A DNA stretch of 64,000 bases from Micromonospora tarapacensis (lineage in GTDB: Bacteria; Actinomycetota; Actinomycetes; Mycobacteriales; Micromonosporaceae): positions 4,513,324 to 4,577,323 of the forward strand of contig NZ_JAHCDI010000004.1 of the NCBI RefSeq assembly GCF_019697375.1. The letters run 5' to 3'. A model generated the notes under the pieces. It did no database searches. It was not told the origin of the DNA and was given only the letters and a program-made list of their open reading frames with translations. Below, piece after piece: positions 35,129 through 47,671 of the stretch. A program made the translations under genes and the position numbers. Numbering within the stretch: position 1 is the first letter of the stretch; each line of letters starts with the position of its first letter.

Positions 35129-35156
35129 TGGTGGAGCTGAGGGGATTTGAACCCCT
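35129..35156. repeat. attL core
   Basis: Twenty-eight bases identical to the 3' end of the tRNA-Ala gene (CCA, acceptor strand and T-arm, minus-strand sense). Identity to 47595-47622 stops exactly at both ends (35128 G against T; 35157 T against G). Confidence 0.93.
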
Positions 35157-35610
35157 TACACCCACGGTGACGAGCGAACATCATCAATCGGACCGATCGA
35201 CGCTCCGACCAGCGCGGGATCTGCTGACGCCTGCCAACGTTTGTCGCCGTTGGCTGCTCTCGGTTGTACCGGATCTGTACCGGATGATCTTGCCGCTCCC
35301 GACCGATCCGGCGCGTCCGGCGGCTACTCGAAGAGACCGACCACGCTGACCACGGCGCCAGACACACTTCCAGCGGTATTGATCTAGACCGGGGGCGTAA
35401 TCGATCAAACCGGACGGCTGCGGCTCCGAGCTGCTGCTACGCCTGAGATGGATGGTCAACGATGGTCGTCGTTGGCTCTCATTGAACGGCCTGGGCACGG
35501 CATGATCTTGCGAGCGCTAGCCACCAACCGACGACGAGATCCGAACCGTCGGGTGCACGATCGAGCCCGCATCATCCGTACCCTCAGTCTGGACCGCAGG
35601 AGGGAACGAC
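35157..35610. other. non-coding left end of the element
   Basis: No credible gene is seen in these 454 bases. They contain the long direct repeat shared with the right end (35265-35293) and, beyond it, a TTGATC/GATCAA inverted pair around 35387-35416. A promoter for the TIR gene should lie in the last 100 bases, but no clear -35/-10 pair was found. Confidence 0.45.
35265..35293 (+). repeat. left copy of end-proximal repeat (candidate integrase arm site)
   Basis: TGTACCGGATCTGTACC (35265-35281), then four bases, then GATCTTGC. The same 17-mer, spacing and octamer occur at 47536-47564. The 17-mer itself contains TGTACC twice, eleven bases apart, about one helical turn. It lies 108 bases inside attL. 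Confidence 0.6.
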
Positions 35611-36468
35611 TTGAAGATCTTTATCTCTTGGAGTGGCGAACCGAGCCGCCAGGTGGCTCGGGCATTGCGGGAGTGGCTCGGCGTGGTCGTCCAGCATGTT
35701 GAGCCCTGGATGTCCGACGAAGAGATCCAAAGCGGTACGAGATGGAACGATTCCATCGCTCACTCGCTCGACGCAACTAACTTCGGGATTGTTTGCGTGA
35801 CACGGATGAACCAAGCTGCCCCATGGCTGATGTTCGAAGCTGGCGCTCTTGCTAAGGGCTTAGAACGGGCGCGGGTCGTCCCTCTCTGCATTGACCTGGA
35901 ACCGTCGGACATTACCTCGCCGTTGCAGGCTTTCCAAGCACGAAAGCTGGACAAGGAGGGCTTGCGCCGTCTTGTTTACGAGCTGAGCGAGCTTGCCGAA
36001 CACCCGAGATTGCGGGAAAGCATCGATACCTTGTTCGAGGCAATGTGGCCACAGCTCGAACGGGCAGTATCCCAAGCATCGACTGCGGCGGTATCTCCGG
36101 GCAAACCTCGGCGCTCCTCAGAAGACATGCTTGCCGAGCTAGTAACCCGGGTGCGCAATATTGAACGAGATATCGAACACCGAGATTCGGCTGCACGGTC
36201 GGACGCTATTGCGTTAGCGCAACGCGCCGACCAGGCTTACCAGGCCATGGAGAGAGCACGACAGGAGGCGGCCACCGCTGCAGCACATGCTCATCACGCG
36301 CTAGATGCTAATAGGGATGCAGAGGCAAGAGCAGCCCTCCTTGAGAAGCAGTTCGCAGAGTCCCAAGCTTTGGCCAACGAACTGAAAGCGAGGCTGGCGC
36401 ATCACGAACAGCGCCTGAAGGAGGCGAAACGCAAAATGCACGAGGCCCAGGAAGAGGCGTCGAAGTAA
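35611..36468 (+). CDS. TIR-domain protein with C-terminal coiled coil
   Basis: A 285-residue protein. Residues 1-160 form a bacterial TIR domain: KIFISWSG at the first strand, VVVQHVEPWMSDEEIQSGTRW, then FGIVCVTRMNQAAPWLMFEAGAL, where Glu76 fits the catalytic Glu of TIR NADases. Residues 170-285 are a charged, Ala/Glu/Arg-rich coiled coil. TTG at 35611 is preceded by an ideal AGGAGG, seven bases away, so the rare start looks real. G+C is much lower than in neighbours, indicating separate acquisition. TIR proteins of this kind serve in anti-phage NAD depletion or signalling; a defence cargo role is inferred. No partner sensor gene is adjacent. Confidence 0.85.
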   Translation: MKIFISWSGEPSRQVARALREWLGVVVQHVEPWMSDEEIQSGTRWNDSIAHSLDATNFGIVCVTRMNQAAPWLMFEAGALAKGLERARVVPLCIDLEPSDITSPLQAFQARKLDKEGLRRLVYELSELAEHPRLRESIDTLFEAMWPQLERAVSQASTAAVSPGKPRRSSEDMLAELVTRVRNIERDIEHRDSAARSDAIALAQRADQAYQAMERARQEAATAAAHAHHALDANRDAEARAALLEKQFAESQALANELKARLAHHEQRLKEAKRKMHEAQEEASK

Positions 36469-36486
36469 CCGCCGCCCCAGCGCATT

Positions 36487-36633
36487 CTCGCCATCCCGTC
36501 GGCCTTCGTCCGCACACCGTGGAGTGGGTGGGGCCTGCCTGGTCAAGGTGGAGCACCCAGCGGCTGAACGACCTTGACCAGGCAGGCCCCACCCACTCGG
36601 CTCTGCCCGGACGAAGGTTGTCGGGATGGCGCC
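36487..36633. repeat. very long inverted repeat, 28-bp perfect inner stem
   Basis: Arms 36522-36549 and 36571-36598 are perfectly complementary over 28 bases around a 21-base loop. The pairing extends outward for another 35 bases on each side (36487-36521 with 36599-36633) with 24 of 35 matches, including CCATCCCG and CCTTCGTCCG. Total arm length is 63 with 52 pairs. It could be a single-strand origin for rolling-circle replication, a bidirectional terminator or a non-autonomous element; the sequence alone does not decide. Confidence 0.85.
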
Positions 36634-36692
36634 ACCATCCCAGAGCGCCCGAGCACCCCGCCGGAGGCACTGCTCTTGTGACTCTCCGACAG

Positions 36693-36734
36693 GAAGCCCC
36701 GGACCTGCCATCGACCATGGCGGCCCGGGGCTTC
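36693..36734 (-). terminator. terminator-like hairpin after the kinase gene
   Basis: GAAGCCCCGG (36693-36702) and CCGGGGCTTC (36725-36734) pair perfectly with a 22-base loop; read on the minus strand it lies downstream of the kinase stop. On the plus strand TTCG-rich sequence follows. Confidence 0.55.
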
Positions 36735-36885
36735 TTCGTATGTCGCGCCGCCGGCGGGCTGGAACCGACGACGCCGTGGCCGAAGGCCTAAGGCGTCGGC
36801 GGCGGCCGGCAGGCCCGGCCCTGGTTCGGCGGCGCGAGCGGCCTGCGAAGCGGGCCGCCTTGATCTCGTACAGAAAGTTCTCACA

Positions 36886-37446
36886 TCATCCGCGTGCTGC
36901 GCTGCGGCGACTCAGCTGCCGACTGGACACTGCCCTATGGATTAAACCCGCTGCGTCTGCTGGTGAGACAGCCGCTGTATCAATCGTCAGATCGGCGTTG
37001 TCCAGTCGTTCGGTCTCGTCCCATGCCCGAAGCCTGGCGGATGTGTCCCCTGTCGCTCGCTCGGCAATCCGTGTAGCGGCAGTCTGCCGGTCTGACCAGA
37101 GCTGCACGACCACCCAACTGATTTCTGGCGCTCCCCGTGTGACGGCATCCACCGCCGCCACCTGACCGAGGTGGACGACAGGGACCGTGCCTTCCTCAGT
37201 CCTCACGAGTGATGGGCGATCAACCACGTACACGGCACCGTACCGTGCGTTCTCCCAGAGAATCGAACCGGCTTCCTTGAGGCGTGCCAGGTGTTCGAGC
37301 GTCGTCATCCGATACCCGGTTACTCGCCCTGGGCCGACCTTCAAGCGCTGGAAGTGTCGATAGCGGGGATCTAACTCGCACAGAGCAGCGGTGACGGTGT
37401 CCTTCCCCGATGCGGGAGGCCCGTACAGCACGAGGCCGTAGCGCAT
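36886..37446 (-). CDS. guanylate-kinase-like P-loop nucleotide kinase
   Basis: A 186-residue protein starting MRYGLVLYGPPASGKDT with Walker A at residues 9-17. The FQRLKVGPGRVTGYRM segment and the ILWENARYGAVYVVDRP stretch resemble the GMP-binding region of guanylate kinases, though the classical two-Arg signature is altered. ATG at 37446 lies two bases after the GntR-kinase stop with GGTGAG just upstream, so the two genes form one operon. Substrate is unknown. Phosphorylation of a nucleotide, drug or signalling molecule is possible; a role in host metabolism seems unlikely given its mobile setting. Confidence 0.7.
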   Translation of the reverse strand: MRYGLVLYGPPASGKDTVTAALCELDPRYRHFQRLKVGPGRVTGYRMTTLEHLARLKEAGSILWENARYGAVYVVDRPSLVRTEEGTVPVVHLGQVAAVDAVTRGAPEISWVVVQLWSDRQTAATRIAERATGDTSARLRAWDETERLDNADLTIDTAAVSPADAAGLIHRAVSSRQLSRRSAARG

Positions 37447-37448
37447 GC

Positions 37449-38294
37449 TCACCCGCCAATGATGGTCTTGAGCAGCTCTCGGGCCTGACTTTGCAGCGGA
37501 CGACCCGACGCGCAATTGTCTACTTCGACGTGGTCGACCGGCGGACGGAACTCAATATCGATCGAAGTCAGGTACTGCGGCCAGTCAGCAAGCTTGGCTG
37601 CGTCACGGGCAGCTCCGCGATGTCGAACATAGGTCTGCATCGTATCGGCGTCACAGTAGACCCAAACAAGGGCGGTGCTAGCGCCCATATCTTTGTAGGC
37701 GGCCTGCCTGCGCTTGATCCAGGCTAGGTCGTGGAACTCCCGAATAAACGGGGCCGTGACAATCGCACTGTTCCCGCACTGCACGTTCTCGTCGGTAGCG
37801 GCAATGAGGGCCTCGTACTCTCGTGGCCGCACCAGGTCAAAATAGGTTGCTGATTCCCGGTCGTGCGGCGACTGGCCCAGCACTTGTAGCGCGGCCTCGA
37901 CAACGGGTCTAGTCAACGTGTCCTTATCCAGGATCGGCCAGCCGGTCTCCCTGGCAAGCATCCGGCCCAACTCAGTCTTGCCGCTGCCGGCGTAGCCGCC
38001 GATGAGGACCACTTGAGGCTGAGCTAGTCGTGCATCCGGCCGGCGTTCTGTGGCAGGCGCAACGACGACTCTCTTTGAGCGCGACTTGCTGGCGACTAGC
38101 CCTTCGGCCGCGAGCAGCTTCATGGCCTCGGTGATGGTGAAGACGCTGACGTCCCACTGTTCGGCTAGCTCTCGCGTCGAGGGCAAGACGTCACCATCCC
38201 GCAGTGCGCCGGCATCGATCTCGTTCCGGAGGTGCCTAGCGACCTGCTGGTGAAGCGCTTCTGTGCGCGTGAGGCGCTTGTCGGGCGATGACAT
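37449..38294 (-). CDS. GntR-type HTH fused to a P-loop kinase domain
   Basis: A 281-residue fusion. Residues 10-78 are a GntR winged helix (LHQQVARHLRNEIDAGAL, DVLPSTRELAEQWDVSVFTITEAMKLLAAEGLV). Instead of a usual effector domain, residues 93-281 form an AAA_33/zeta-like P-loop kinase with Walker A GGYAGSGKTE (99-108), LDKDTLTRPVVEAAL, and a lid with VRHRGAARD. It reads leftward, away from the transfer operon, in the position of KorSA of pSAM2. Repression of the operon gated by ATP or a phosphorylated ligand is inferred. Inverted repeats in the intergenic region are candidate operators. Confidence 0.8.
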   Translation of the reverse strand: MSSPDKRLTRTEALHQQVARHLRNEIDAGALRDGDVLPSTRELAEQWDVSVFTITEAMKLLAAEGLVASKSRSKRVVVAPATERRPDARLAQPQVVLIGGYAGSGKTELGRMLARETGWPILDKDTLTRPVVEAALQVLGQSPHDRESATYFDLVRPREYEALIAATDENVQCGNSAIVTAPFIREFHDLAWIKRRQAAYKDMGASTALVWVYCDADTMQTYVRHRGAARDAAKLADWPQYLTSIDIEFRPPVDHVEVDNCASGRPLQSQARELLKTIIGG

Positions 38295-38320
38295 CAGGGG
38301 TTCCCGTCGTTGACATGGCG

Positions 38321-38343
38321 CTGGTAGGCCCTGAGGCTACCAG
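38321..38343. promoter_or_regulatory. inverted repeat at the GntR-kinase promoter
   Basis: CTGGTAG (38321-38327) and CTACCAG (38337-38343) are a perfect inverted repeat with a nine-base spacer, 27 bases upstream of the GntR-kinase start. A site for autoregulation is plausible. Confidence 0.4.
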
Positions 38344-38418
38344 TTACCTATCAGAACGCCTGTGCGAGAAGGCGCAGGTCACGGCTAGATCGCCGGGACA
38401 CTCGAAAGAATCTTGGAC

Positions 38419-38452
38419 CTAACAGTTGCTCTGATCACATATCAACTGTTAG
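38419..38452. promoter_or_regulatory. perfect inverted repeat, candidate operator of the transfer operon
   Basis: CTAACAGTTG (38419-38428) and CAACTGTTAG (38443-38452) are perfect inverted copies with a 14-base spacer, in an A+T-rich patch 60-95 bases before the first plus-strand gene. TTGGAC at 38413-38418 could be the -35 of the promoter it covers. The divergent GntR-kinase is the obvious candidate to bind here; binding is inferred. Confidence 0.55.
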
Positions 38453-38512
38453 CTTCGTCTGCATCGGGCACTAGCCCAATGAGGGCAAGCCCCAGTTGAG
38501 AAGGAGTCAGTC

Positions 38513-38845
38513 ATGGGACGTCTGATGCTGGACACGTCGCGGGTGTCGTACGAGGTGTCGGTGAATCCGGTTCCGAAGCTGGACCAGAACGGTCAGCAGA
38601 AGTTCGACCGGGAGACGAAGCAGCCGATGTGGACGGTGCACCTGTACGCGTTGTCGGAGGGCAGTGCGGAGGTCATCAACGTGACGGTGGTGAGTCCGAC
38701 GGTGCCGCCGGTGGCGGTGCGTCAGCCGGTGCTGCCGCTGGACCTGGAGGCGCTGCCCTGGGTCAACGACCGGGACGGCAAGACCCGTCACGGTGTCGCG
38801 TTCAAGGCTGCGGGTCTGCGCCCGATCGAGACCGACACGAAGTAG
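38513..38845 (+). CDS. SCO3933-family regulatory protein (Pra-like)
   Basis: A 110-residue protein opening GRLMLDTSRVSYEVSVNPVPKLD, with FDRETKQPMWTVHLYAL and a C-terminal HGVAFKAAGLRP. This is the small beta-rich family that opens the transfer/replication operon in many AICEs. In pSAM2 the equivalent position is held by Pra, which activates replication, integration and excision. ATG at 38513 follows GAAGGAG. It is the first gene of the plus-strand block and lies next to the divergent GntR-kinase promoter region. Confidence 0.75.
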   Translation: MGRLMLDTSRVSYEVSVNPVPKLDQNGQQKFDRETKQPMWTVHLYALSEGSAEVINVTVVSPTVPPVAVRQPVLPLDLEALPWVNDRDGKTRHGVAFKAAGLRPIETDTK

Positions 38846-38975
38846 CACCCGGTCGTCCGTGACCGGCTCCGCACAGCATCGCTGATGGGTGGACACGGGG
38901 TCGCCGTTGATTGGCGTCGTCTGCGACCCCGCGTCCTGTCAACAAATCCGTTTCCCTGAGTTGGGAGGACTTGTC

Positions 38976-39908
38976 GTGCGCAAGTCTAGTTCGCGGTCCC
39001 CGTTCGGCTGGTCGAACCGTGGTGGGACTGTCACTGTCATCGAGGCTCCGATCGCCCGCTCGTACCGTCGTCGGGCCGTGATCGCGTTCTGGGTCACTTC
39101 CGCCGTGGTTGGCCTGCTCGCCGCGACGGTGTTGTCGCACTACCTGCACCCGATCCTGGGTGCCGTGGCCGGCGTCCTGCTCGGCGTCGTGCTGGGCGCG
39201 GTGGTGTTCGCGCTGATCGTGGCGTGGCCGGTGCTGCGCGTGTTCTGGCACTGGCTACCGGAGATCCTGGTCGGTCTGGCCGTGGTCTACGGCTGGGTGG
39301 CGTTGATGCAGTCGACACCCATGTGGCTGTCGCTGCTGATCGTCGCCCTGGTCGTGGGTGTGCCGGCCGCGATCGGTCCGGTCCGCCGCCGCATCGTGTC
39401 CTGGGCGTGGTGTCTGATCGTGCGGCATCGGCTGCGGTTGTGTTTCGCGGCGTTCCTCGCCACGAACCGGCACGGGTCGCTGCCGCTGATCCTGCTCGCC
39501 CGTCCGACCCCGGCCGGGGAACGGGTCTGGGTGTGGCTACGCCCCGGCCTCTCTCTCCGTGACTTGGAGCAGGACGGCCAGGTGCAGAAGCTGGCCGTGG
39601 CGTGTTGGGCCAACGAGGTCCGCGTGATGCGCGCCAACCGCAAGTACGCGGCGCTGGTCCGGGTGGACATCACCCGCCGTGAACCCCTCGCGCACACGAT
39701 CGTGTCGCCGCTGCCGGACTACGTACCGGCCGATATTCCGTCGAATGCTCCGACGTCTCCGGGCATGCCGCCTGTCGGCCTGGACCTGCCCGACGTGCCG
39801 GACCACCCGGCCCCTGTGCCGGCTGACACCGCCCGGCCGCGCAAACCGCGCAACACCTCGACCACCGAGACGAGCCCGTCCGGGTTCGACCCCTCCGACT
39901 ACGCCTAA
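38976..39908 (+). CDS. membrane protein, N-terminal part of a split TraB-like transfer protein
   Basis: A 310-residue protein. Four or five membrane helices lie between residues 35 and 155 (AVIAFWVTSAVVGLLAATVL; ILGAVAGVLLGVVLGAVVFALIVAWPVL; ILVGLAVVYGWVALM; LSLLIVALVVGVPAAIGPV). A soluble domain follows with LRPGLSLRDLEQDGQVQKLAVACWANEVRV, which resembles the region just before the ATPase in FtsK/TraB proteins, then a Pro-rich tail. GTG at 38976 follows GGGAGGA and is preferred to the upstream ATG at 38889. Together with the next ATPase gene it gives the parts of one TraB. Confidence 0.7.
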   Translation: MRKSSSRSPFGWSNRGGTVTVIEAPIARSYRRRAVIAFWVTSAVVGLLAATVLSHYLHPILGAVAGVLLGVVLGAVVFALIVAWPVLRVFWHWLPEILVGLAVVYGWVALMQSTPMWLSLLIVALVVGVPAAIGPVRRRIVSWAWCLIVRHRLRLCFAAFLATNRHGSLPLILLARPTPAGERVWVWLRPGLSLRDLEQDGQVQKLAVACWANEVRVMRANRKYAALVRVDITRREPLAHTIVSPLPDYVPADIPSNAPTSPGMPPVGLDLPDVPDHPAPVPADTARPRKPRNTSTTETSPSGFDPSDYA

Positions 39909-39981
39909 CCAACCGGGACGGCGCGGACCGAGCACCCACCTGCGGGTCAAGCGTCCGCGCCCCTCCCACCCTGCCCACCTG

Positions 39982-39997
39982 TGACACGTACGTGTCA
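39982..39997. promoter_or_regulatory. 16-bp palindrome, copy 1
   Basis: TGACACGTACGTGTCA, a perfect palindrome, lies in the 112-base gap before the FtsK-like gene, 24 bases from its start. Two more identical copies occur in the element and none was seen in the flanking chromosome. Confidence 0.75.
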
Positions 39998-40020
39998 ACC
40001 CCATCCTCGGGAGCATCGTC

Positions 40021-40884
40021 GTGGACCTCACCGACACCCTGGAACTACCCACCCACCGCGAGCCGCCGGACACGGTGCCGGTCGGCGCGGGCCTGTCCAT
40101 CTTCGATCCGGTGTTCCTCGGCATCGATGAGTTCGGTCAGCCGACGTACCTGCCGATGATCTACCGCAACATCCTCATCGGTGGCGAGCCCGGCGCGGGT
40201 AAGTCGTCGCTGTTGAACACCATCGTCGGGCACGCCGCTCTGTGCCCCGATGTGCGGCTGTGCCTGCTGGATGGCAAGCAGGTCGAACTCGGGTTGTGGA
40301 AGGACGTCGCCGACGTGTTCGTCGGCCCGGACATGGACCTCGCCATCCGCACCCTTCGCCGGGTGCAGGCGGTGATGGACAACCGGTACTCGTTCCTGCT
40401 GTCGCACCGCCGCCGGAAGATCGGCCCCAACGACCTGTTCGGTCAGATCCTCGTGGCCTGCGACGAGATCGCCTACTTCTCCGCCACCGCCGGAGACAAG
40501 AAGGACCAGGACCTGTTCGCCGCGCTGCTACGCGACATCGTCGCCCGTGGCCGCGCCGTCGGCATCATCGTCGCCGCCGCCACGCAACGCCCGTCGTCGG
40601 ACATCATCCCGCCGTCGCTGCGGGACCTGTTCGCCTGGCGGTTCGCTGGCCGCTGCACCAACGACGTGTCCTCCGACATCGTGCTCGGACACGGCTGGTA
40701 CGCCCGCGGCTTCTCCTCCAACAGCATCGACCCGAACAACCAGGGCGAGGGCTACCTCATCGCCGAAGGTGGCATCCCCAACCGCGTGAAGGCCGCCTAC
40801 ATGACCGACACCGACATCATCCGCGTCGCCGACTACGCCACCTGGACCCGCCGCACCAACCACACCCTCGGAGCGGCGGCATGA
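40021..40884 (+). CDS. FtsK/SpoIIIE-type DNA translocase (TraSA-like)
   Basis: A 287-residue ATPase. Walker A is GGEPGAGKSS (about residues 54-63), Walker B ILVACDEIAYF (about 143-153), followed by DIVARGRAVGIIVAAATQRPSSDIIP, typical of FtsK motors. It lacks membrane helices and is close to pSAM2 TraSA in length. In AICEs one such protein moves double-stranded DNA between hyphae. The GTG at 40021 is preceded by CGGGAG. It overlaps the next small gene by ATGA. Confidence 0.88.
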   Translation: MDLTDTLELPTHREPPDTVPVGAGLSIFDPVFLGIDEFGQPTYLPMIYRNILIGGEPGAGKSSLLNTIVGHAALCPDVRLCLLDGKQVELGLWKDVADVFVGPDMDLAIRTLRRVQAVMDNRYSFLLSHRRRKIGPNDLFGQILVACDEIAYFSATAGDKKDQDLFAALLRDIVARGRAVGIIVAAATQRPSSDIIPPSLRDLFAWRFAGRCTNDVSSDIVLGHGWYARGFSSNSIDPNNQGEGYLIAEGGIPNRVKAAYMTDTDIIRVADYATWTRRTNHTLGAAA

Positions 40885-41066
40885 AAACGCAGACGCCACC
40901 CGCTACCCGGGTCCTGGACCTGGTGCTCATCGGCGACAGCGAAGACATCGCCGCACTCACCGCCATCGCCCGCCGCGCGGGCTCACTGGTCTACCGCTCC
41001 GCACCCACCGCCACCGACGACGGACGGCAACGGGTGTTCTTCCGGCTCCACCTGCACCACCGATAG
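40881..41066 (+). CDS. small protein of unknown function
   Basis: A 61-residue protein (opening MKTQTPPATRVLDLVLIGD) with a predicted strand-helix-strand pattern: VLDLVLIGD, IAALTAIARRAG, and a C-terminal RVFFRLHLHHR. ATG overlaps the ATPase stop by four bases, so it is co-translated. Small ORFs at this place are common in AICEs. I do not recognise it. Confidence 0.6.
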   Translation: MKTQTPPATRVLDLVLIGDSEDIAALTAIARRAGSLVYRSAPTATDDGRQRVFFRLHLHHR

Positions 41067-41151
41067 AAGACGGCCGACAGACCGGCCAAAGCCCTGGAAA
41101 AGCTGCCCGGTCTGCCGACCTAACCACCGCCCACGAAAGGACGTGGCCGCC

Positions 41152-41673
41152 ATGAACCCTACCCAAAACCTACCCACCAGCGGTGCGCTGGCCGACCTGA
41201 CCCCGGCCGACATCCTGCGCTGCGCCGCCCGCTACCTCGAACTCCGAGGCTGGACGCAAGGCGTCTACTACGGCCTCACCACCAACACCCCGTTCCCGCC
41301 GGCCTGCGTGTCCGGCGCGATCGGCATGGCCACCTACGGCCACTGCATCCCTCTCCCGCACGACGAGAAAGCCGACCCCGGCGTCCGCGACTACCGGCGC
41401 GCCCTCGACGCCCTGTCCTACTACCTACTCGATCTCGGCCCCGACCCGGCCCGCCCCTACAGCGACGACGAGCCCAGCGGCGACCCGTTCGAGTGGAACG
41501 ACCGACCCGGCCGCACCGCCGCACAGGTCATCGGCACCCTGCGCGACGCGGCCGACGACTACGACTGGACCCACGCCACCGAGGACGACCTCGAAACCTA
41601 CGCCGACGCCTGCGCCTGGGCCGAGCGCCACCCCACCCGCGACGGGTTCCTCGCCTGGCGGGCCGCCCAATGA
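41152..41673 (+). CDS. DUF6197-like protein
   Basis: A 173-residue protein. Its core DILRCAARYLELRGWTQGVYYGL, PPACVSGAIGMATYG and DYRRALDALSYYLLD resembles the actinobacterial DUF6197 family of unknown function, which is common on phages and integrative elements. ATG at 41152 lies ten bases after AAAGGA; an in-frame GTG at 41143 is too close to it. It overlaps the next gene by ATGA. Confidence 0.65.
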   Translation: MNPTQNLPTSGALADLTPADILRCAARYLELRGWTQGVYYGLTTNTPFPPACVSGAIGMATYGHCIPLPHDEKADPGVRDYRRALDALSYYLLDLGPDPARPYSDDEPSGDPFEWNDRPGRTAAQVIGTLRDAADDYDWTHATEDDLETYADACAWAERHPTRDGFLAWRAAQ

Positions 41674-41969
41674 GCGCCCGCCTCGACCGCCGGCTGCTGA
41701 CCGCCGGTATGGGCGTCACCGTCGCCCAGCTCGTCACCCTCTGGGCCGAGCACACCCCGGCCCGTCTGCCCGTGCCGGTGGCCTGCCCTGGCTGCGGCCA
41801 CCCCTACAGCGACACAACGCCGCTGTGCCCGACCGCCGCCGTGGTGCGGCCTCTGCTGCGTCGCCGACGCCACGAGATCCCCGGCGCGATCGACGCTCTG
41901 ACCCCGAATCAGCTCGCCGACCTGACCGGCAAGCGGCTGTCCACCGCGCTTCCCGAGGTGACCCGATGA
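41670..41969 (+). CDS. small zinc-finger-like protein
   Basis: A 99-residue protein with an N-terminal HTH-like helix pair (TVAQLVTLWAEHTP), a CPGCGHPYSDTTPLC segment (three Cys; the fourth ligand is unclear) and a basic C-terminus. It overlaps both neighbours by four bases. Function unknown; nucleic-acid binding is possible. Confidence 0.6.
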   Translation: MSARLDRRLLTAGMGVTVAQLVTLWAEHTPARLPVPVACPGCGHPYSDTTPLCPTAAVVRPLLRRRRHEIPGAIDALTPNQLADLTGKRLSTALPEVTR

Positions 41970-43078
41970 CCTTCCCTGCCTCGATCACCGATGTGACACG
42001 TACGTGTCAAACCGACGTCTCCACTGCCGCGCTGATCACCGCGCTGGAATCCTGCTGGGCCGCGATCCGCGCCCAACACCCCGACGTTCCCGCCGCCGTC
42101 CTCGTGGTCGGCTCCGGCTCACCCACCAAAGCGAACCAGGGCATGACCTGGGGCCACTTCGCCGCCCTGCGCTGGCAAGCCGGCGACCAGCAACTCCCCG
42201 AAGTCCTCATCTCCGGTGAAGGGCTGTCCCGCGAACCGGAAGCCGTGTTCACCACCCTCCTCCACGAAGCCACCCACGCCCTCGCCGACGTGCGAGGCAT
42301 CCAGGACACCTCCCGACAGGGCCGCTGGCACAACAAGAAATTCGCCACCCTCGCCGCCGAACTCGGCCTGTCCACCACCAAGGACGACAAGCTCGGCTAC
42401 TCGCCCTGCACCCTCACCGACATCACCCGCGCCCGCTACAAGGCCACCATCGCGGGTCTCGCCGACGCCCTGCGGTTGCACCGGCACCCCGAGCCGACCG
42501 GGGAAGCCAAAACCCGCACGAACAACAACAACGGCATCTCGGCCGAGTGCGAATGCCCGCGCAAACTGCGCATCTCCCAAACCGCCTTCGAAGAGGCCCC
42601 GATCGTCTGCGCCGCCTGCGGCGCGGCGTTCCTGCCCGAGGACATCGACCGCGACACCTACGAACACCCCACCCTCACCACCGGCAGCGCTCCTGCCAGC
42701 GACGACCACGACCAGGACCAGGCCGACGACGACTCGGAGGACCCGATGGTGTTCTACGACCCGACCGGCGAGCGCTACGGCCTGCCGACCTACCCCTACA
42801 AATTCGCCCCCGGCGACCTACTGACCCGCCGGCAACTGCGTGCCCGCGACCTGCGGCCAGGCGGCCAGGAACCCGCCGCCCAAATCCTCTGGCGGCGCGG
42901 CAAGCGCATCGCCTACCTCTACCGACTCGACCTCGCGCTCCCCAAACGGACCGCCACCCCGGCACAACGTGCCGCCATCGACAAGGCGCTCATCGCGCGG
43001 CGCACCTGCCCCGACTGCCAGCAGGTCAAGCCCTACTACATCTCCCGCCGTACCGGCACCTGCCTCGACTGCCACTGA
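41966..43078 (+). CDS. SprT-like zinc metalloprotein with zinc-ribbon modules
   Basis: A 370-residue protein. The HEATH motif (H100-E101-x-x-H104) and a later His122 in RWHNKKF form a SprT/gluzincin-like zinc site. A zinc ribbon follows (CECPRKLRISQ, then CAACGAAF, about residues 191-215), and the C-terminus has a second set (TCPDCQQ, CLDCH). SprT-like proteins include DNA-protein crosslink proteases (Spartan), so removal of covalent relaxase-type adducts after rolling-circle replication is an attractive idea, but unproven. A palindrome copy lies inside codons 10-15. The gene overlaps its upstream neighbour by four bases. Confidence 0.7.
   Translation: MTFPASITDVTRTCQTDVSTAALITALESCWAAIRAQHPDVPAAVLVVGSGSPTKANQGMTWGHFAALRWQAGDQQLPEVLISGEGLSREPEAVFTTLLHEATHALADVRGIQDTSRQGRWHNKKFATLAAELGLSTTKDDKLGYSPCTLTDITRARYKATIAGLADALRLHRHPEPTGEAKTRTNNNNGISAECECPRKLRISQTAFEEAPIVCAACGAAFLPEDIDRDTYEHPTLTTGSAPASDDHDQDQADDDSEDPMVFYDPTGERYGLPTYPYKFAPGDLLTRRQLRARDLRPGGQEPAAQILWRRGKRIAYLYRLDLALPKRTATPAQRAAIDKALIARRTCPDCQQVKPYYISRRTGTCLDCH
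41994..42009. promoter_or_regulatory. 16-bp palindrome, copy 2
   Basis: TGACACGTACGTGTCA inside the 5' coding part of the SprT-like gene. Copy 1 is non-coding and copy 3 covers a stop codon, so identity cannot come from protein constraint. Confidence 0.75.
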
Positions 43079-43095
43079 GCCGAAAGGACACGACC

Positions 43096-43302
43096 ATGCG
43101 CTACTACGTCACCTTCACCCACACCACCGCCAACGGCGTCGCCTTCGAGTACTTCGAGTACCAGCCCGCCACCCCCATCGCCGGCTACGACGACATCGAC
43201 AACCTCACCACGATGATTCGCGGCTGGGGCCGCACCAACGTCACCGTCATCGCCTTCTCCCCGCTCGCTGACCCCACCCCCACCGCTCGGGCGGCGTCAT
43301 GA
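43096..43302 (+). CDS. small protein of unknown function
   Basis: A 68-residue protein opening MRYYVTFTHTTANGVAFEYFEY, with a beta-hairpin pattern and a helix DDIDNLTTMIRGWG. ATG at 43096 follows GAAAGGA; the stop overlaps the next start (ATGA). Conserved place in AICE operons, no known function. Confidence 0.6.
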   Translation: MRYYVTFTHTTANGVAFEYFEYQPATPIAGYDDIDNLTTMIRGWGRTNVTVIAFSPLADPTPTARAAS

Positions 43303-44186
43303 CCACGCCAACCAATCGATCCTCGCCCGGCTGGGCCTACCTCGGCCTCACCTTGGGCGGACTCGTATCCGTCGCCGCGAACATCGCCCATTCCTTCATT
43401 GCCCCGCCGGATGCTCCGGAGAACTGGAGCCCGGAACCCGGCAAAGTCATCTCGGCGATCGTGTGGCCGCTGTTCCTGTTCATCGCCATCGAGATCCTTG
43501 CCCGCACCCCCTGGCCGACCGGCCTGGGCTGGAACCTGCTCCGCTGGGTCGGTTTCCCGCCCGTGGCCCTGGTCGCCGCGTTCGTGTCCTACCGGCACCT
43601 GTCCGGACTACTCGACCACTACAACGAGGAAACCCTCGTCGTCTGGCTCGGTCCCCTCGCCGTCGATGGCCTGATGCTCAAGGCCACCGCCGCGCTACTC
43701 GCCAACAAACACGCCAACCGGCCCACCAACCCTGTCCCGGCACTGGTGCCGGCCACCCTCGCTGAGGCCCCGTCAACCGACATCCCGGCCTCACCGACGG
43801 TCCGCCCGGCCGCCGCGACCCCGGCCACCAACCCCGAACCCACCAACGAACCGACGCCCGAACCCATCAACCTGCCCACCTCTGGCGAGGCAACCGCACC
43901 CACGACGACGGTCGAACCCGGCCCGGACACCACCGTGACGGACCCGAGCACGGCAACCCCGGTACCCGCGACGGTCACCACCGGCCCACCGGCAGCACTG
44001 CTGCCCAACGCCCGGATCGTCGCCGCCGCACACGAGAAAGCCCACGGTGAGCCCATCACCGCCGGCCAACTCGCCGTCCGGCTGCGCGTACCCACCAGCA
44101 CGGCCGCTGACATCCTCACGGCCCTGATCGATCCGACTGTCAACAACCAACCGCACAACGGCACCGCTGTGGGAGCCACCGCGTGA
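43299..44186 (+). CDS. DUF2637 membrane protein (SpdB-like spread protein)
   Basis: A 295-residue protein with four membrane segments (LGLTLGGLVSVAANIAHSFI; VISAIVWPLFLFIAIEIL; FPPVALVAAFVSYRHLSGLL; WLGPLAVDGLMLKATAALLA), the DUF2637 pattern of plasmid spread proteins. Then comes a Pro/Thr-rich linker and a C-terminal helical part (AGQLAVRLRVPTSTAADIL) that resembles an HTH. Spd proteins help plasmid DNA move along the recipient mycelium. ATG overlaps the upstream stop, and its own stop overlaps the Rep start. Confidence 0.8.
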   Translation: MTTPTNRSSPGWAYLGLTLGGLVSVAANIAHSFIAPPDAPENWSPEPGKVISAIVWPLFLFIAIEILARTPWPTGLGWNLLRWVGFPPVALVAAFVSYRHLSGLLDHYNEETLVVWLGPLAVDGLMLKATAALLANKHANRPTNPVPALVPATLAEAPSTDIPASPTVRPAAATPATNPEPTNEPTPEPINLPTSGEATAPTTTVEPGPDTTVTDPSTATPVPATVTTGPPAALLPNARIVAAAHEKAHGEPITAGQLAVRLRVPTSTAADILTALIDPTVNNQPHNGTAVGATA

Positions 44187-45790
44187 CGTCCTCGACGCTG
44201 CCTCTCGCGCCCGAAACCACCACGGTTTCGGGCACGGGAGCCTGCGCCGACGCAGACACCGGCTACTGGCCCTGGGCCACCCCCACCCGCACCACCCGCA
44301 CCACCCGCAACCCCGCCGCCGACGGGTGGGTACGCGGCCACGACCCGCGCACCGTCGCCTCCGGACGCGCCCGCGCCCAGGACCCCGACTACCCCGACTG
44401 GCTGAACCACGTCAAAGCCGCCTCGGCGTGCAAGCACCCGATCCGGCTCGCCGGGCAGATCCACGTCACCGACGGCGACGGCAACCGGATGGCTACCGTC
44501 GACACCGATGACATGCCCGACGGGGCGATCTACACCCCCTGCGGCAACCGCCGCGCGTCGGTCTGCCCGTCCTGCGCGGAGCTGTACCGCCGCGACACGT
44601 TCCACCTGATCAAAGCCGGCCTGCAAGGCGACCGGTGGGGACTCCCACCCCTGCACGAACACATCGCCATCTTCCTCACCGCCACCGCACCGTCGTTCGG
44701 GCCGGTGCATCACCGGGTGGTCAAGGTCCACGCCGCCGACTGCCGACGTAAGGACGGCTGCACCTGCCGGCCCTCGGCATGCCACCCGTTCGGCCGCACC
44801 TGCCCCCACGGCGTAGAGCTGCGCTGCGGCCAACGTCACAAGGCCGGCGATCCGCACCTGGGTCAGCCGTTGTGTCTGGACTGCTACGACCACCACGGCC
44901 AGGTCGTGTGGAACCACGAAGCACCCGAACTGTGGCGCCGCACCATCCAACAAGTCGACCGCGAACTTCGCCGCCTCGGCCGCACCCACGGCGTCGAGCT
45001 ACGCCGCCGCTACATCAAGGTCTACGAATTCCAGGTACGCGGCGTCGTGCACTACCACGCCCTGATCCGCCTCGACGGCGAGAACCCCGACTGCCCCGGC
45101 GCGATCGTCCCACCCCCACGCGTCATCAGCCGGGACATGTTCGAAACCGCCGTGCGGGCCGCGTTCGTCAAGACCGCCTACACCTCGACCTCGCACCCCG
45201 CCAACAACAACCAGGGGTGGCGGATCGGCTGGGGGGACAAGGGCCTGGACATCAAGCACGTCAACGCCCCCGGCAGTGAGGTCAACCTCGCCCAGATCAC
45301 CGGCTACATCGCCAAGTACGTCACCAAAAGCACCGAGGTAACCGGCCTGAGCCTGCGCCGCGTCGACGACCTCACCGTGGAAATCCACGGCGACCCGACC
45401 ACCCACCTCGGCCGGCTCATCCGCGCCTGCTGGGACATCGGCGAGCACCCCGACTACCAGCGGCTACGCCGGTGGGCGCACCAGTTCGGCTACGGCGGCC
45501 ACATCACCACCAAAAGCCGTGCGTTCTCCGTGACGCTCGGCTTCCTGCGTCACCAGCGCACCATCTGGCGACGCACCGAAGGCCACCCCCACACCTGGGA
45601 CGACGAACAAGCCGAACGCGTCATCTACGAACTCGGCTACCAGGCCACCGGCTGGATCACCACCGGAGACGCCCTACTCGCCAACACCGCCGCCGCCCTC
45701 GCCCGCGCCCGACACCAAGCCGGCCTCGACGCCCTCGCCGACGAGCAGGCGGACCACCACCGGACCGCCGCCCAACCCCTGGCCGCTTGA
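44183..45790 (+). CDS. replication initiator, RepSA type
   Basis: A 535-residue rolling-circle initiator of the pSAM2 RepSA class. The N-terminal part has CGNRRASVCPSCAELYRRD (about residues 117-135), a zinc-binding signature of the family. RGVVHYHALIRLDG (about 284-297) supplies the metal-binding histidines of a HUH-like active site, and ITGYIAKYVTKSTE follows; a Tyr here is a candidate nucleophile. GTG at 44183 overlaps the SpdB-like stop. The stop codon lies inside copy 3 of the palindrome. Excised AICEs replicate by this protein before transfer. Confidence 0.88.
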   Translation: MTSSTLPLAPETTTVSGTGACADADTGYWPWATPTRTTRTTRNPAADGWVRGHDPRTVASGRARAQDPDYPDWLNHVKAASACKHPIRLAGQIHVTDGDGNRMATVDTDDMPDGAIYTPCGNRRASVCPSCAELYRRDTFHLIKAGLQGDRWGLPPLHEHIAIFLTATAPSFGPVHHRVVKVHAADCRRKDGCTCRPSACHPFGRTCPHGVELRCGQRHKAGDPHLGQPLCLDCYDHHGQVVWNHEAPELWRRTIQQVDRELRRLGRTHGVELRRRYIKVYEFQVRGVVHYHALIRLDGENPDCPGAIVPPPRVISRDMFETAVRAAFVKTAYTSTSHPANNNQGWRIGWGDKGLDIKHVNAPGSEVNLAQITGYIAKYVTKSTEVTGLSLRRVDDLTVEIHGDPTTHLGRLIRACWDIGEHPDYQRLRRWAHQFGYGGHITTKSRAFSVTLGFLRHQRTIWRRTEGHPHTWDDEQAERVIYELGYQATGWITTGDALLANTAAALARARHQAGLDALADEQADHHRTAAQPLAA

Positions 45791-45803
45791 CACGTACGTG
45801 TCA
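45788..45803. promoter_or_regulatory. 16-bp palindrome, copy 3 (18 bp here)
   Basis: TGACACGTACGTGTCA covers the rep stop codon; one more pair extends it to an 18-bp perfect palindrome, 45787-45804. Its position at the end of the initiator gene makes an origin or a regulatory site for xis/int possible. Confidence 0.75.
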
Positions 45804-45889
45804 ACGACCCGTGAAGCCGTTCCTTGACAACTCCACAGCGTGCAAGCCCGAACACCCCACCCCGGCAAGCACTACCAGGGAGGAAGCCG

Positions 45890-46093
45890 ATGGCTGACAG
45901 CCGTCCGACGCCACTCGTTCAGGTCCGGGTCATCGCCGACCCGGATCACGCCCAGGTCCTCATCGCCGATGTCGCTCAGCGGGCGCGGCAACTGCTGGGA
46001 CCTGGCGTCGACATCCGTACTCAAACCCGGTCCGCACGGCGGGCCGGATACGTCCGTCTGTACCTCACCGCTGCACGAAGGGAGAGCCCATGA
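45890..46093 (+). CDS. small protein of unknown function
   Basis: A 67-residue protein with a beta-alpha-beta pattern (LVQVRVIADPDHAQVLIADVAQRARQLLG, then YVRLYLTAARR). ATG at 45890 follows a very strong AGGGAGGAAG. Its stop overlaps the xis start by four bases. Similar small genes sit before xis in other AICEs. Confidence 0.6.
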   Translation: MADSRPTPLVQVRVIADPDHAQVLIADVAQRARQLLGPGVDIRTQTRSARRAGYVRLYLTAARRESP

Positions 46094-46290
46094 CCGTAGC
46101 CACCAACGAACCGCTGTGGACCATCGAGGATGTGTCCGCGTTCTTGCGCATCGAGGTGAACACCCTCTATCAGTGGCGCTCCCGCCGCACCGGCCCTCGC
46201 GCTTTCAAGGTCGGTCGGCACCTGCGCTACGACCCTTCCGATGTGCGATCCTGGCTCACCGATCAGGCGGACGACCATGGCGGTCGATGA
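46090..46290 (+). CDS. xis: excisionase (MerR/AlpA-type HTH)
   Basis: A 66-residue winged-helix protein: WTIEDVSAFLRIEVNTLYQWRSRRTGPRAFKVGRHLRYDPSDVRSWL. This is the HTH_17 excisionase fold that directs Int towards excision. It overlaps int by 14 bases and the small gene before it by four, so the three are co-expressed. Confidence 0.88.
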   Translation: MTVATNEPLWTIEDVSAFLRIEVNTLYQWRSRRTGPRAFKVGRHLRYDPSDVRSWLTDQADDHGGR

Positions 46291-47533
46291 CCTGTGGTAC
46301 CTGAGCAAGCGCGGTCCCCACGGCGAGAAGGTGAAGTCCCAGCGTTACGGCCGGGGGAAGCGCTGGCGCTGCCGCTACGAAGACGCTGGCGGCAACACCC
46401 GAACTCGCTTCTTCGACCGCAAGGTCGACGCTGACGCCTGGGACAAGAAGGCCAGCAGCGGCACGGCCGAGGAAACCCAGGTCGACCAGAGTGCCCGGCG
46501 AACGACCTTTCACGACTACGCGGAACGTTGGCGGCTGTCCCGCCAGATCGGGCAGGCGCTCGACTATCAACGTCACATCGAATCCCGGCTACGCCACCAC
46601 CACTACCCGTACTTCGGCGACCGGCCCATCCGGGCCATCACCGTCACGGACGTCCTGGAGTGGATCGCCAGGCTGCTACAGAACGAGGTCGCCCAATCGT
46701 CGGTGAAGACCTACTTCGACCTGCTCAACAACATCATGAATTCCGCGATGGTCGACAAGGTGATTCCCGACAACCCTTGCAAGTCGGTCCGGCTGTTCGC
46801 GATCCTGCGCGGCTTCTCCCGCGCGCCGAAATGGGTACCGACCGATGACGACGTGCTCGTCCTGGTCGACGTCGTACCGGACGAATTCCTGGCCGCCATC
46901 TGGGCCGGTGCCGGTGAGGGACTTCGGCTCGGGGAAGTCCTCGGCCTGGAGGACAGCGCCCGGTGCATCGACCCGGACCGGCAGGAACTCCACGTGGTGC
47001 AGCAACTGCGGTTCCACAAGTCCGGTTACGGCGGCTTCTACCTCGCCCCACCCAAAGCTGGCTCGGTCGGCGATGTCGACCTGGACGACCACGTCGCGGC
47101 GGTCTTCGCCGAACACGTCCGCACGTACCCGCCCGTCCTGGTCGAGCTGCCCGACGTCACCACCGGCACGCCCGACCCCGGCAAGGACCCGAAACGGCGG
47201 CTCGTGCCGCTACTGTTCACCGACGACCAGGGGCGGCCCATCCATGACCAGCGCTGGTCCGACATGTGGCAGACCTGGCGTAAAGCGGCCGAATGGCCCG
47301 ACGAAGGCACCTTCCACTCCCTGCGGCACTACTTCGCCACTCGCCTGATCACCTCGGGTGCCGACCCGACAGACGTGCAGAACGCGCTACGTCACTCCAG
47401 CCTGCGAATCACGCTCGAAACCTACGTGCACTGGTGGCCCAAGAAAGACCGCCGCCGCAACATCATCAGCAGCGCGCTACAGGACGCCCGAGCCAAGCGG
47501 CCGACCGGCCGGAAGTCCCAGAATCTCCGCTGA
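46277..47533 (+). CDS. int: tyrosine site-specific integrase
   Basis: A 418-residue tyrosine recombinase. The N-terminal arm-binding part starts MAVDDLWYLSKRG, a SAM-like core-binding domain spans about residues 75-180, and the catalytic domain has Arg in AGEGLRLGEVLGL (about 212), HSLRHYFATRL (about 348) and the nucleophile Tyr in LRITLETYVHW (about 381). ATG at 46277 overlaps xis. The stop lies 61 bases before the att core, the usual place for an integrase using a tRNA site. Confidence 0.95.
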   Translation: MAVDDLWYLSKRGPHGEKVKSQRYGRGKRWRCRYEDAGGNTRTRFFDRKVDADAWDKKASSGTAEETQVDQSARRTTFHDYAERWRLSRQIGQALDYQRHIESRLRHHHYPYFGDRPIRAITVTDVLEWIARLLQNEVAQSSVKTYFDLLNNIMNSAMVDKVIPDNPCKSVRLFAILRGFSRAPKWVPTDDDVLVLVDVVPDEFLAAIWAGAGEGLRLGEVLGLEDSARCIDPDRQELHVVQQLRFHKSGYGGFYLAPPKAGSVGDVDLDDHVAAVFAEHVRTYPPVLVELPDVTTGTPDPGKDPKRRLVPLLFTDDQGRPIHDQRWSDMWQTWRKAAEWPDEGTFHSLRHYFATRLITSGADPTDVQNALRHSSLRITLETYVHWWPKKDRRRNIISSALQDARAKRPTGRKSQNLR

Positions 47534-47535
47534 TC

Positions 47536-47564
47536 TGTACCGGATCTGTACCTAGCGATCTTGC
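47536..47564 (+). repeat. right copy of end-proximal repeat (candidate integrase arm site)
   Basis: TGTACCGGATCTGTACC (47536-47552), four bases, then GATCTTGC; matches the left copy at 25 or more of 29 positions with identical spacing. It begins two bases after the int stop and ends 30 bases before the att core. Confidence 0.6.
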
Positions 47565-47594
47565 TGGCAGCGTTTCCGCTGCTCAACGGTGTTA

Positions 47595-47622
47595 TTGGTG
47601 GAGCTGAGGGGATTTGAACCCC
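47595..47622. repeat. attR core (within intact tRNA-Ala)
   Basis: The 28-base core identical to attL, here forming the CCA end, acceptor strand and T-arm of the functional tRNA gene. Integration therefore leaves the tRNA intact. Confidence 0.93.
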
Positions 47623-47671
47623 TGACCCCCTCGATGCGAACGAGGTGCGCTACCAGTCTGCGCCACAGCCC
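47595..47671 (-). tRNA. tRNA-Ala(CGC)
   Basis: A 77-nt gene with encoded CCA. Acceptor GGGGCTG pairs with CAGCTCC and keeps the alanine identity pair G3-U70; discriminator is A. The anticodon stem CCTCG/CGAGG encloses TTCGCAT, anticodon CGC, reading GCG. The T-arm is AGGGG-TTCAAAT-CCCCT. It is the attachment gene of the AICE, whose DNA starts right at its 3' end. Confidence 0.96.

Follow-up and report, generated by a model that had tools for sequence, protein, structure and literature searches.

Operators repeated through a mobile element are known from KorB of RK2, a helix-turn-helix (HTH) protein of the ParB family, and metalloproteases paired with repressors are known from ImmA/ImmR of ICEBs1 and from IrrE/DdrO. 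To our knowledge, no sequence-specific operator is known for the SPRTN/SprT proteases. SPRTN is described in an excerpt of PMC7826251 as degrading DNA-crosslinked proteins promiscuously. For pSAM2, an excerpt of PMC8584621 has KorSA repressing pra and Pra activating repSA-xis-int, and gives AC[TC]T[AG]TT[GC][TG][GT]ACG as the footprint motif of SCO3932. Here we describe a 16-bp palindrome, TGACACGTACGTGTCA, found at three places in an actinomycete integrative and conjugative element (AICE) of Micromonospora tarapacensis, which lies in a 64-kb stretch of contig NZ_JAHCDI010000004.1 (the window, i.e. the whole of that stretch). At a probability of roughly 0.85, we surmise from sequence comparisons that the palindrome is the operator of a repressor encoded by the element itself, with the SprT-like metalloprotease of this AICE as the favored candidate.

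As in the KorSA-Pra circuit of pSAM2, a few control sites would govern AICE replication and excision, and a gene of the Pra family is present in this AICE; unlike KorSA, which is a GntR protein, the gene that co-occurs with the site here is sprT. The KorB operators of RK2 are alike in being a short palindrome repeated through a mobile element, both within and between genes, but no ParB-like match was seen among the AICE genes scanned. In contrast to ImmA/ImmR and IrrE/DdrO, no shared HTH repressor partner was found, and the operator lies in, and goes along with, the gene of the protease. The SCO3932 motif, as excerpted from PMC8584621, is unlike TTGAC-N8-GTCAA, the general form of our site. 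In the open-licence literature, a motif search with the 16-mer and its cores gave nothing on this subject among the matches listed, searches combining SprT with actinobacteria and with integrative or conjugative elements gave no such site (an excerpt of PMC7143919 included), and one on Micromonospora AICEs and palindromes gave nothing relevant among the matches listed; neither 'palindrom' nor 'SprT' gave a match in a term search of PMC3218068.

The palindrome and its association with sprT-like genes

The initial annotation of the window had reported three identical copies of the palindrome, one non-coding, one read in frame and one over a stop codon, with none in the flanking DNA, and our counts bear this out. 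Exactly 3 copies are present in the window, at the positions given in Table 1, and 0 in the rest of it; with <=3 mismatches allowed there are still 3 matches vs. 0.20 expected, a number reached by 0/100 shuffles. The first copy is non-coding, the second is read within the SprT-like gene, and the third, which extends to 18 bp (TTGACACGTACGTGTCAA), supplies with its own TGA the stop codon of rep. The whole 6.9-Mb home genome holds only these 3 exact 16-mers, all inside the 12.5-kb AICE, and 2 more places at 2 mismatches. In actinobacteria at large, the 16-mer represents one variant of an 18-bp site, TTGAC-N8-GTCAA, that usually sits at the 5' end of sprT and is also found elsewhere in the element; its exact pattern occurs once in the home genome, as site 3, with sites 1 and 2 deviating at the outermost base.

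Among 300 genomes of the Micromonosporaceae, the exact 16-mer was found in 40, with at least 3 copies in 22 of them, vs. 0/300 for the reversed 16-mer as control. A SprT search blind to the palindrome, with presence defined as a match to the N-terminal domain at E <=1e-40, placed SprT in 31/300 genomes at 34 places; the 16-mer occurred in 29 of these 31 vs. 11 of the 269 SprT-less genomes (Fisher p 5e-29). The remaining two SprT genomes have variants of it, one of them a one-base central variant identical at three sites (L268) and the other TTGACAATTAATTGTCAA near its sprT (L269, the same as L254). With <=1 mismatch allowed, a sprT-proximal site is present at 31/34 SprT places and a site ahead of ftsK in 24 of the 33 SprT loci with FtsK, and all 33/33 SprT loci fetched hold at least one site; a site near the end of rep was found in 24/29 SprT loci with Rep, 18 of these beginning at the rep stop codon, whose position was extrapolated from the alignment.

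Since site 1 lies ahead of ftsK and site 3 at the rep stop ahead of xis-int, and since small rep-int elements carry the site, one could think of a DNA-processing site, i.e. a TraB/FtsK loading site (clt), a Rep-binding site at the origin or arm sites for integrase/excisionase, the first two of which the initial annotation had also proposed. RepSA-type Rep is far commoner than SprT, being present in 161/300 family genomes, and the 16-mer is found in 8 of the 132 genomes with Rep and without SprT. As a negative control, we analyzed 20 RepSA loci that lack the SprT domain, 19 from genomes with no SprT N-domain match and one (L286) from the home genome. These loci have Rep at 42-49%, FtsK homologues in 12 cases (11 at 51-67%) and homologues of ORF2 (11), DUF6197 (9) and DUF2637 (7); exact TTGAC-N8-GTCAA was absent from 19 of the 20, the other (L277) having three, and no other repeated palindrome was seen in the ten loci checked. 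The site is missing from eleven SprT-less loci whose FtsK (51-67%) and Rep (42-46%) are homologous, which goes against clt and origin alike; beside sprT, the site persists in Nocardia, Actinomadura and Brachybacterium loci where no homologue of the AICE FtsK or Rep was found. With the promoter geometry of the plasmids (see below) also opposed to it, we regard a DNA-processing site as very improbable.

Among 394 genomes of the class, the 16-mer was found in two, the home genome and that of Nocardia sp. NBC_01503 (G658), where four copies lie just upstream of its three sprT genes; exact TTGAC-N8-GTCAA occurs 4 times in this 8.35-Mb genome, all at sprT, vs. 1 for the reversed control. From named genomes, we took the best 80 of 124 sprT loci, chosen by protein alone. 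These contain 81 exact TTGAC-N8-GTCAA vs. 0.2 in shuffles of neighboring base pairs, and 170 sites vs. 16.6 at <=1 mismatch. A near site, defined as one within -160 to +60 of the sprT match with <=2 of 10 fixed bases wrong, is present at 58/80 sprT loci vs. 5% of random windows, and an exact near site at 27/80 vs. 0.6%. The exact 16-mer stands ahead of sprT in 24/80 loci, belonging to Nocardia, Actinomadura, a metagenome-assembled genome each of Pseudonocardiales and Actinomycetota, and Micromonosporaceae; this form is scattered over the SprT tree, with clades lacking it in between. Among 70 plasmid records with a SprT-like match, eight were fetched and 7/8 carry exact TTGAC-N8-GTCAA, an Iamia plasmid having no such exact site.

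Possible promoter context and the candidate reader of the site

The view of the initial annotation that selection keeps the palindrome at the level of DNA is supported by the way the site is read, besides its co-occurrence with sprT and its agreement within elements. Twenty-nine of the 58 near sites lie in an open frame that has, upstream of the site, a start and a sequence like a ribosome site; two different frames are used, 17 sites reading like LTRTCQ and 12 like VDAHVST; the remaining 29 are upstream of a start, as judged by a rough test. Outside the site, 13 family genes that were selected for carrying it in exact form share identical stretches of 9 nt at most, and in view of that selection only the contrast between site and rest is informative.

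A -10-like TAnnnT is found at a spacing of 17-19 from the TTGACA of the site in 11/291 oriented sites; the other spacings from 8 to 29 have <=1 each. The loci in question are plasmids of Amycolatopsis (two), Prauserella, Natronoglycomyces and Microbacterium, plus Pseudonocardia N23, and in these six loci, mostly plasmids, the site would appear to form the -35 region and spacer of a sigma-70-like promoter. A repressor fits better than an activator, because the palindrome covers the -35 region and spacer and because site positions run from well upstream into the coding region. Taken with position, co-occurrence and within-element agreement, this geometry points to an operator function; among the candidate readings of the initial annotation, it is operators for several promoters in one element that have gained support, with clt and origin left unsupported.

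As to the protein that reads the site, we compared 22 loci in seven groups, two of which have near-exact site forms, within 9 kb of sprT, and SprT was the only protein found common to all seven groups. A complete 21.8-kb Brachybacterium plasmid (L252) has the identical 18-mer 57 bp ahead of its sprT, and SprT is the sole protein it has in common with the AICE (open reading frames >=40 aa, E <=1e-3). These comparisons also bear on an arrangement like ImmA/ImmR or IrrE/DdrO, in which the operator would be occupied by an HTH repressor from a gene elsewhere, itself the substrate of the SprT-like protease. The HExxH motif of the SprT-like protein is intact, and metalloprotease-repressor pairs do govern other elements and stress responses; however, no regulator or HTH protein common to the site-bearing elements was found by blastp, a clear GntR domain occurs in 8/25 family loci, and the Brachybacterium plasmid is without an annotated regulator, although it has many hypothetical genes. 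We therefore consider such a repressor-cleaving pair unlikely.

The site also follows SprT in its divergence, as evidenced by: 1) site differences that grow with SprT distance (Mantel r 0.47, 0/2000 permutations), the within-genus correlation being strong in Nocardia (0.87) and Kribbella (0.70); 2) a mean of 5.2 site differences within the same host genus at a SprT distance of 0.45-0.55 (41 pairs) vs. 3.4 between host genera (821 pairs), so that divergent-SprT loci of one genus have sites no more alike than across genera; 3) a site center that varies between SprT lineages and agrees within an element, with 1.31 differences in the central 8 bp within vs. 2.35 between elements (0/2000 shuffles), or 1.66 vs. 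3.02 without Micromonosporaceae and Nocardia A, based on 47 loci with >=2 sites, 7 near-copy loci having been left out. Such agreement within an element would be expected if a single trans-acting factor, encoded by the element, imposed it. A transcription factor of the host, conserved among actinobacteria and having SprT merely as its regular target, could account for the identical 18-mer in several orders and for a SprT model with no evident DNA-binding fold, but the two genomes tested offer no other exact targets (site 3 alone in the home genome and the four at sprT in Nocardia), and different SprT lineages in one host genus have different sites. A host factor is, in our opinion, improbable. 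Judging from co-occurrence, the reader of the sites is probably the SprT-like protein, which had been missing from the binders proposed initially.

Several observations weigh against a SprT-read operator. The 16-mer is present in 11 SprT-less family genomes (their loci were fetched except for G021 and G185); two or three sites are present in small rep-int loci that have no sprT (L052 in G274, L069 in G263 and L277 in G050); and site 2 is missing from L071 and L072, where SprT is present. Beyond the family, 6/80 sprT loci are without any site at <=1 mismatch and 22/80 sprT genes without a near site, some of the latter (Kineosporia, Agromyces, some Microbacterium) keeping sites elsewhere. The 11 promoter-like sites come from only six loci, and the three sites of the window have no TAnnnT at the right spacing. 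The within-genus correlation of site and SprT is about zero in Pseudonocardia and Micromonospora, and part of the correlated descent is expected because site and sprT are linked. Lastly, no HTH is visible in the AlphaFold2 model of the SprT-like protein. As for the small loci, G274 and G263 also hold a full SprT-bearing AICE, hence L052 and L069 might be satellites under the repressor of a helper.

The same AlphaFold2 model suggests a SPRTN-like fold, and a profile search of solved structures gave 0 matches. H100, E101 and H104 of the HExxH motif and a third histidine, H122, are invariant across 68 sequences, with H122 presumably binding zinc. Pfam PF10263 scores the protein at 15.8 bits, below the gathering cut-off of 25.6, for which reason we name it SprT-like only.

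Among other candidates, the GntR-kinase, the SCO3933-type protein and the FtsK-like protein, all suggested by the initial annotation, were rejected as the cognate binder. A clear GntR domain is present in 8/25 family loci, with one further weak match and HTH/NUDIX genes in other family loci; SCO3933/Pra is found without the site in L273, L280 and L284, and the Nocardia, Actinomadura and Brachybacterium loci gave no homologue of it; and FtsK, like Rep and DUF2637, is present in SprT-less loci without the site.

The element and neighboring observations

A 28-bp att repeat borders the AICE on both sides, the right-hand copy overlapping the 3' end of tRNA-Ala, and the element encodes a RepSA-type initiator, a FtsK/TraB-like ATPase, Xis and a tyrosine integrase (Table 1). 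The ATG of the SprT-like gene overlaps the stop codon that precedes it.

Table 1. Features of the AICE, with positions in the 64-kb window.
Feature	Position	Strand	Remark
AICE	35129..47623		12.5 kb
att direct repeat, left end	35129..35156	no strand	28-bp repeat
GntR-kinase	37449..38294		GntR DNA-binding domain fused to AAA_33 kinase-like domain
Inverted repeat TAACAGTTG-N14-CAACTGTTA	38420..38451		between GntR-kinase and SCO3933/Pra-type gene
SCO3933/Pra-family protein	38513..38845	+	71.6 bits, curated cut-off 80
ORF2, upstream of site 1	38976..39908	+	Pfam: no match
Site 1, TGACACGTACGTGTCA	39982..39997	no strand	non-coding; between ORF2 and FtsK-like gene, 23 bp ahead of FtsK-like start
FtsK/SpoIIIE-like transfer ATPase, downstream of site 1	40021..40884	+	PF01580
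SprT-like metalloprotease with C-terminal RRQRL zinc module	41966..43078	+	HExxH residues 100-104, H122, zinc ribbon
Site 2, palindrome	41994..42009	no strand	codons 10-15 of SprT-like gene
RepSA-family replication initiator	44183..45790	+	PF20199
Site 3, 18-bp form TTGACACGTACGTGTCAA	45787..45804	no strand	across rep stop; ahead of s67-xis-int genes; 16-mer at 45788-45803
Xis-like HTH_17 protein, downstream of site 3	46090..46290	+	domain match
Tyrosine integrase	46277..47533	+	PF00589
att direct repeat, right end	47596..47623	no strand	within 3' end of tRNA-Ala

The inverted repeat ahead of the SCO3933/Pra-type gene is a possible operator of the GntR-kinase. A copy of this kinase in G274 (L071) is 97% identical, and an Amycolatopsis plasmid (L255) has a 54% relative; regulator modules may thus be exchanged between elements. 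The home genome has a second, SprT-less AICE-like locus (L286, G000:C3:70874-72376), with Rep at 43-47%, FtsK at 67% and no such site. The RRQRL-type zinc module, fused here to the SprT-like domain, occurs without that domain in many other family and class loci.

Further palindromes and site arrangements were noticed along the way. The sites of L052 and L069 stand in tandem after rep, and a lone 16-mer in L067 (position 9703) lies ~150 bp ahead of an open reading frame reading like an ArsR regulator, with no AICE gene recognized in 20 kb. In Nocardia (L142-L149, L120-L122), 9/11 sprT genes have two site copies, mostly 31-35 bp apart, one of the two being slightly changed in L142 and L145, and a conserved GC-rich stretch lies further upstream of most of these double sites. 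In the acidimicrobial Iamia plasmid (L257, position 2134), the sprT-like gene starts inside TTGTCACGTACGTGACAA, a perfect 18-bp palindrome with TTGTC for TTGAC. Among ten more distant SprT-like genes (L123-L132), L124, L127, L129 and L131 are preceded by other perfect palindromes of 16-26 bp, e.g. TGGCGTGTACACGCCA and ATTCTCGCGTCTTAAGACGCGAGAAT. Twelve stretches of IMG/VR viral contigs (L075-L086) contain the exact 16-mer, one copy each.

A proposed switch and its meaning

We postulate that the 18-bp TTGAC-N8-GTCAA is bound by a single protein of the element itself, most likely a dimer of the SprT-like metalloprotease. Binding where the transcription units for transfer (ftsK), sprT-rep and xis-int begin would keep these units off, and the repressor would be autoregulated. 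Loss or self-cleavage of the SprT-like protein, e.g. on single-stranded DNA, would release the promoters, although this step is a guess and the coupling of the switch to proteolysis a speculation. Tentatively, a SPRTN-fold metalloprotease without an HTH may repress actinobacterial mobile elements, and its own gene, in a sequence-specific manner. Such a one-protein switch would be LexA-like, with the DNA-dependent protease clearing itself from its operators and so releasing the transfer and excision genes.

At the least, TTGAC-N8-GTCAA provides a practical marker for this class of element. The AICEs and related plasmids of many actinobacterial families would seem to have one recognizable control site, which points to a single reader gene. 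If this is true, the decision of an element to mobilize could be tested with one protein and one 18-mer, and SprT-fold proteases would gain an unexpected role as sequence-specific regulators.

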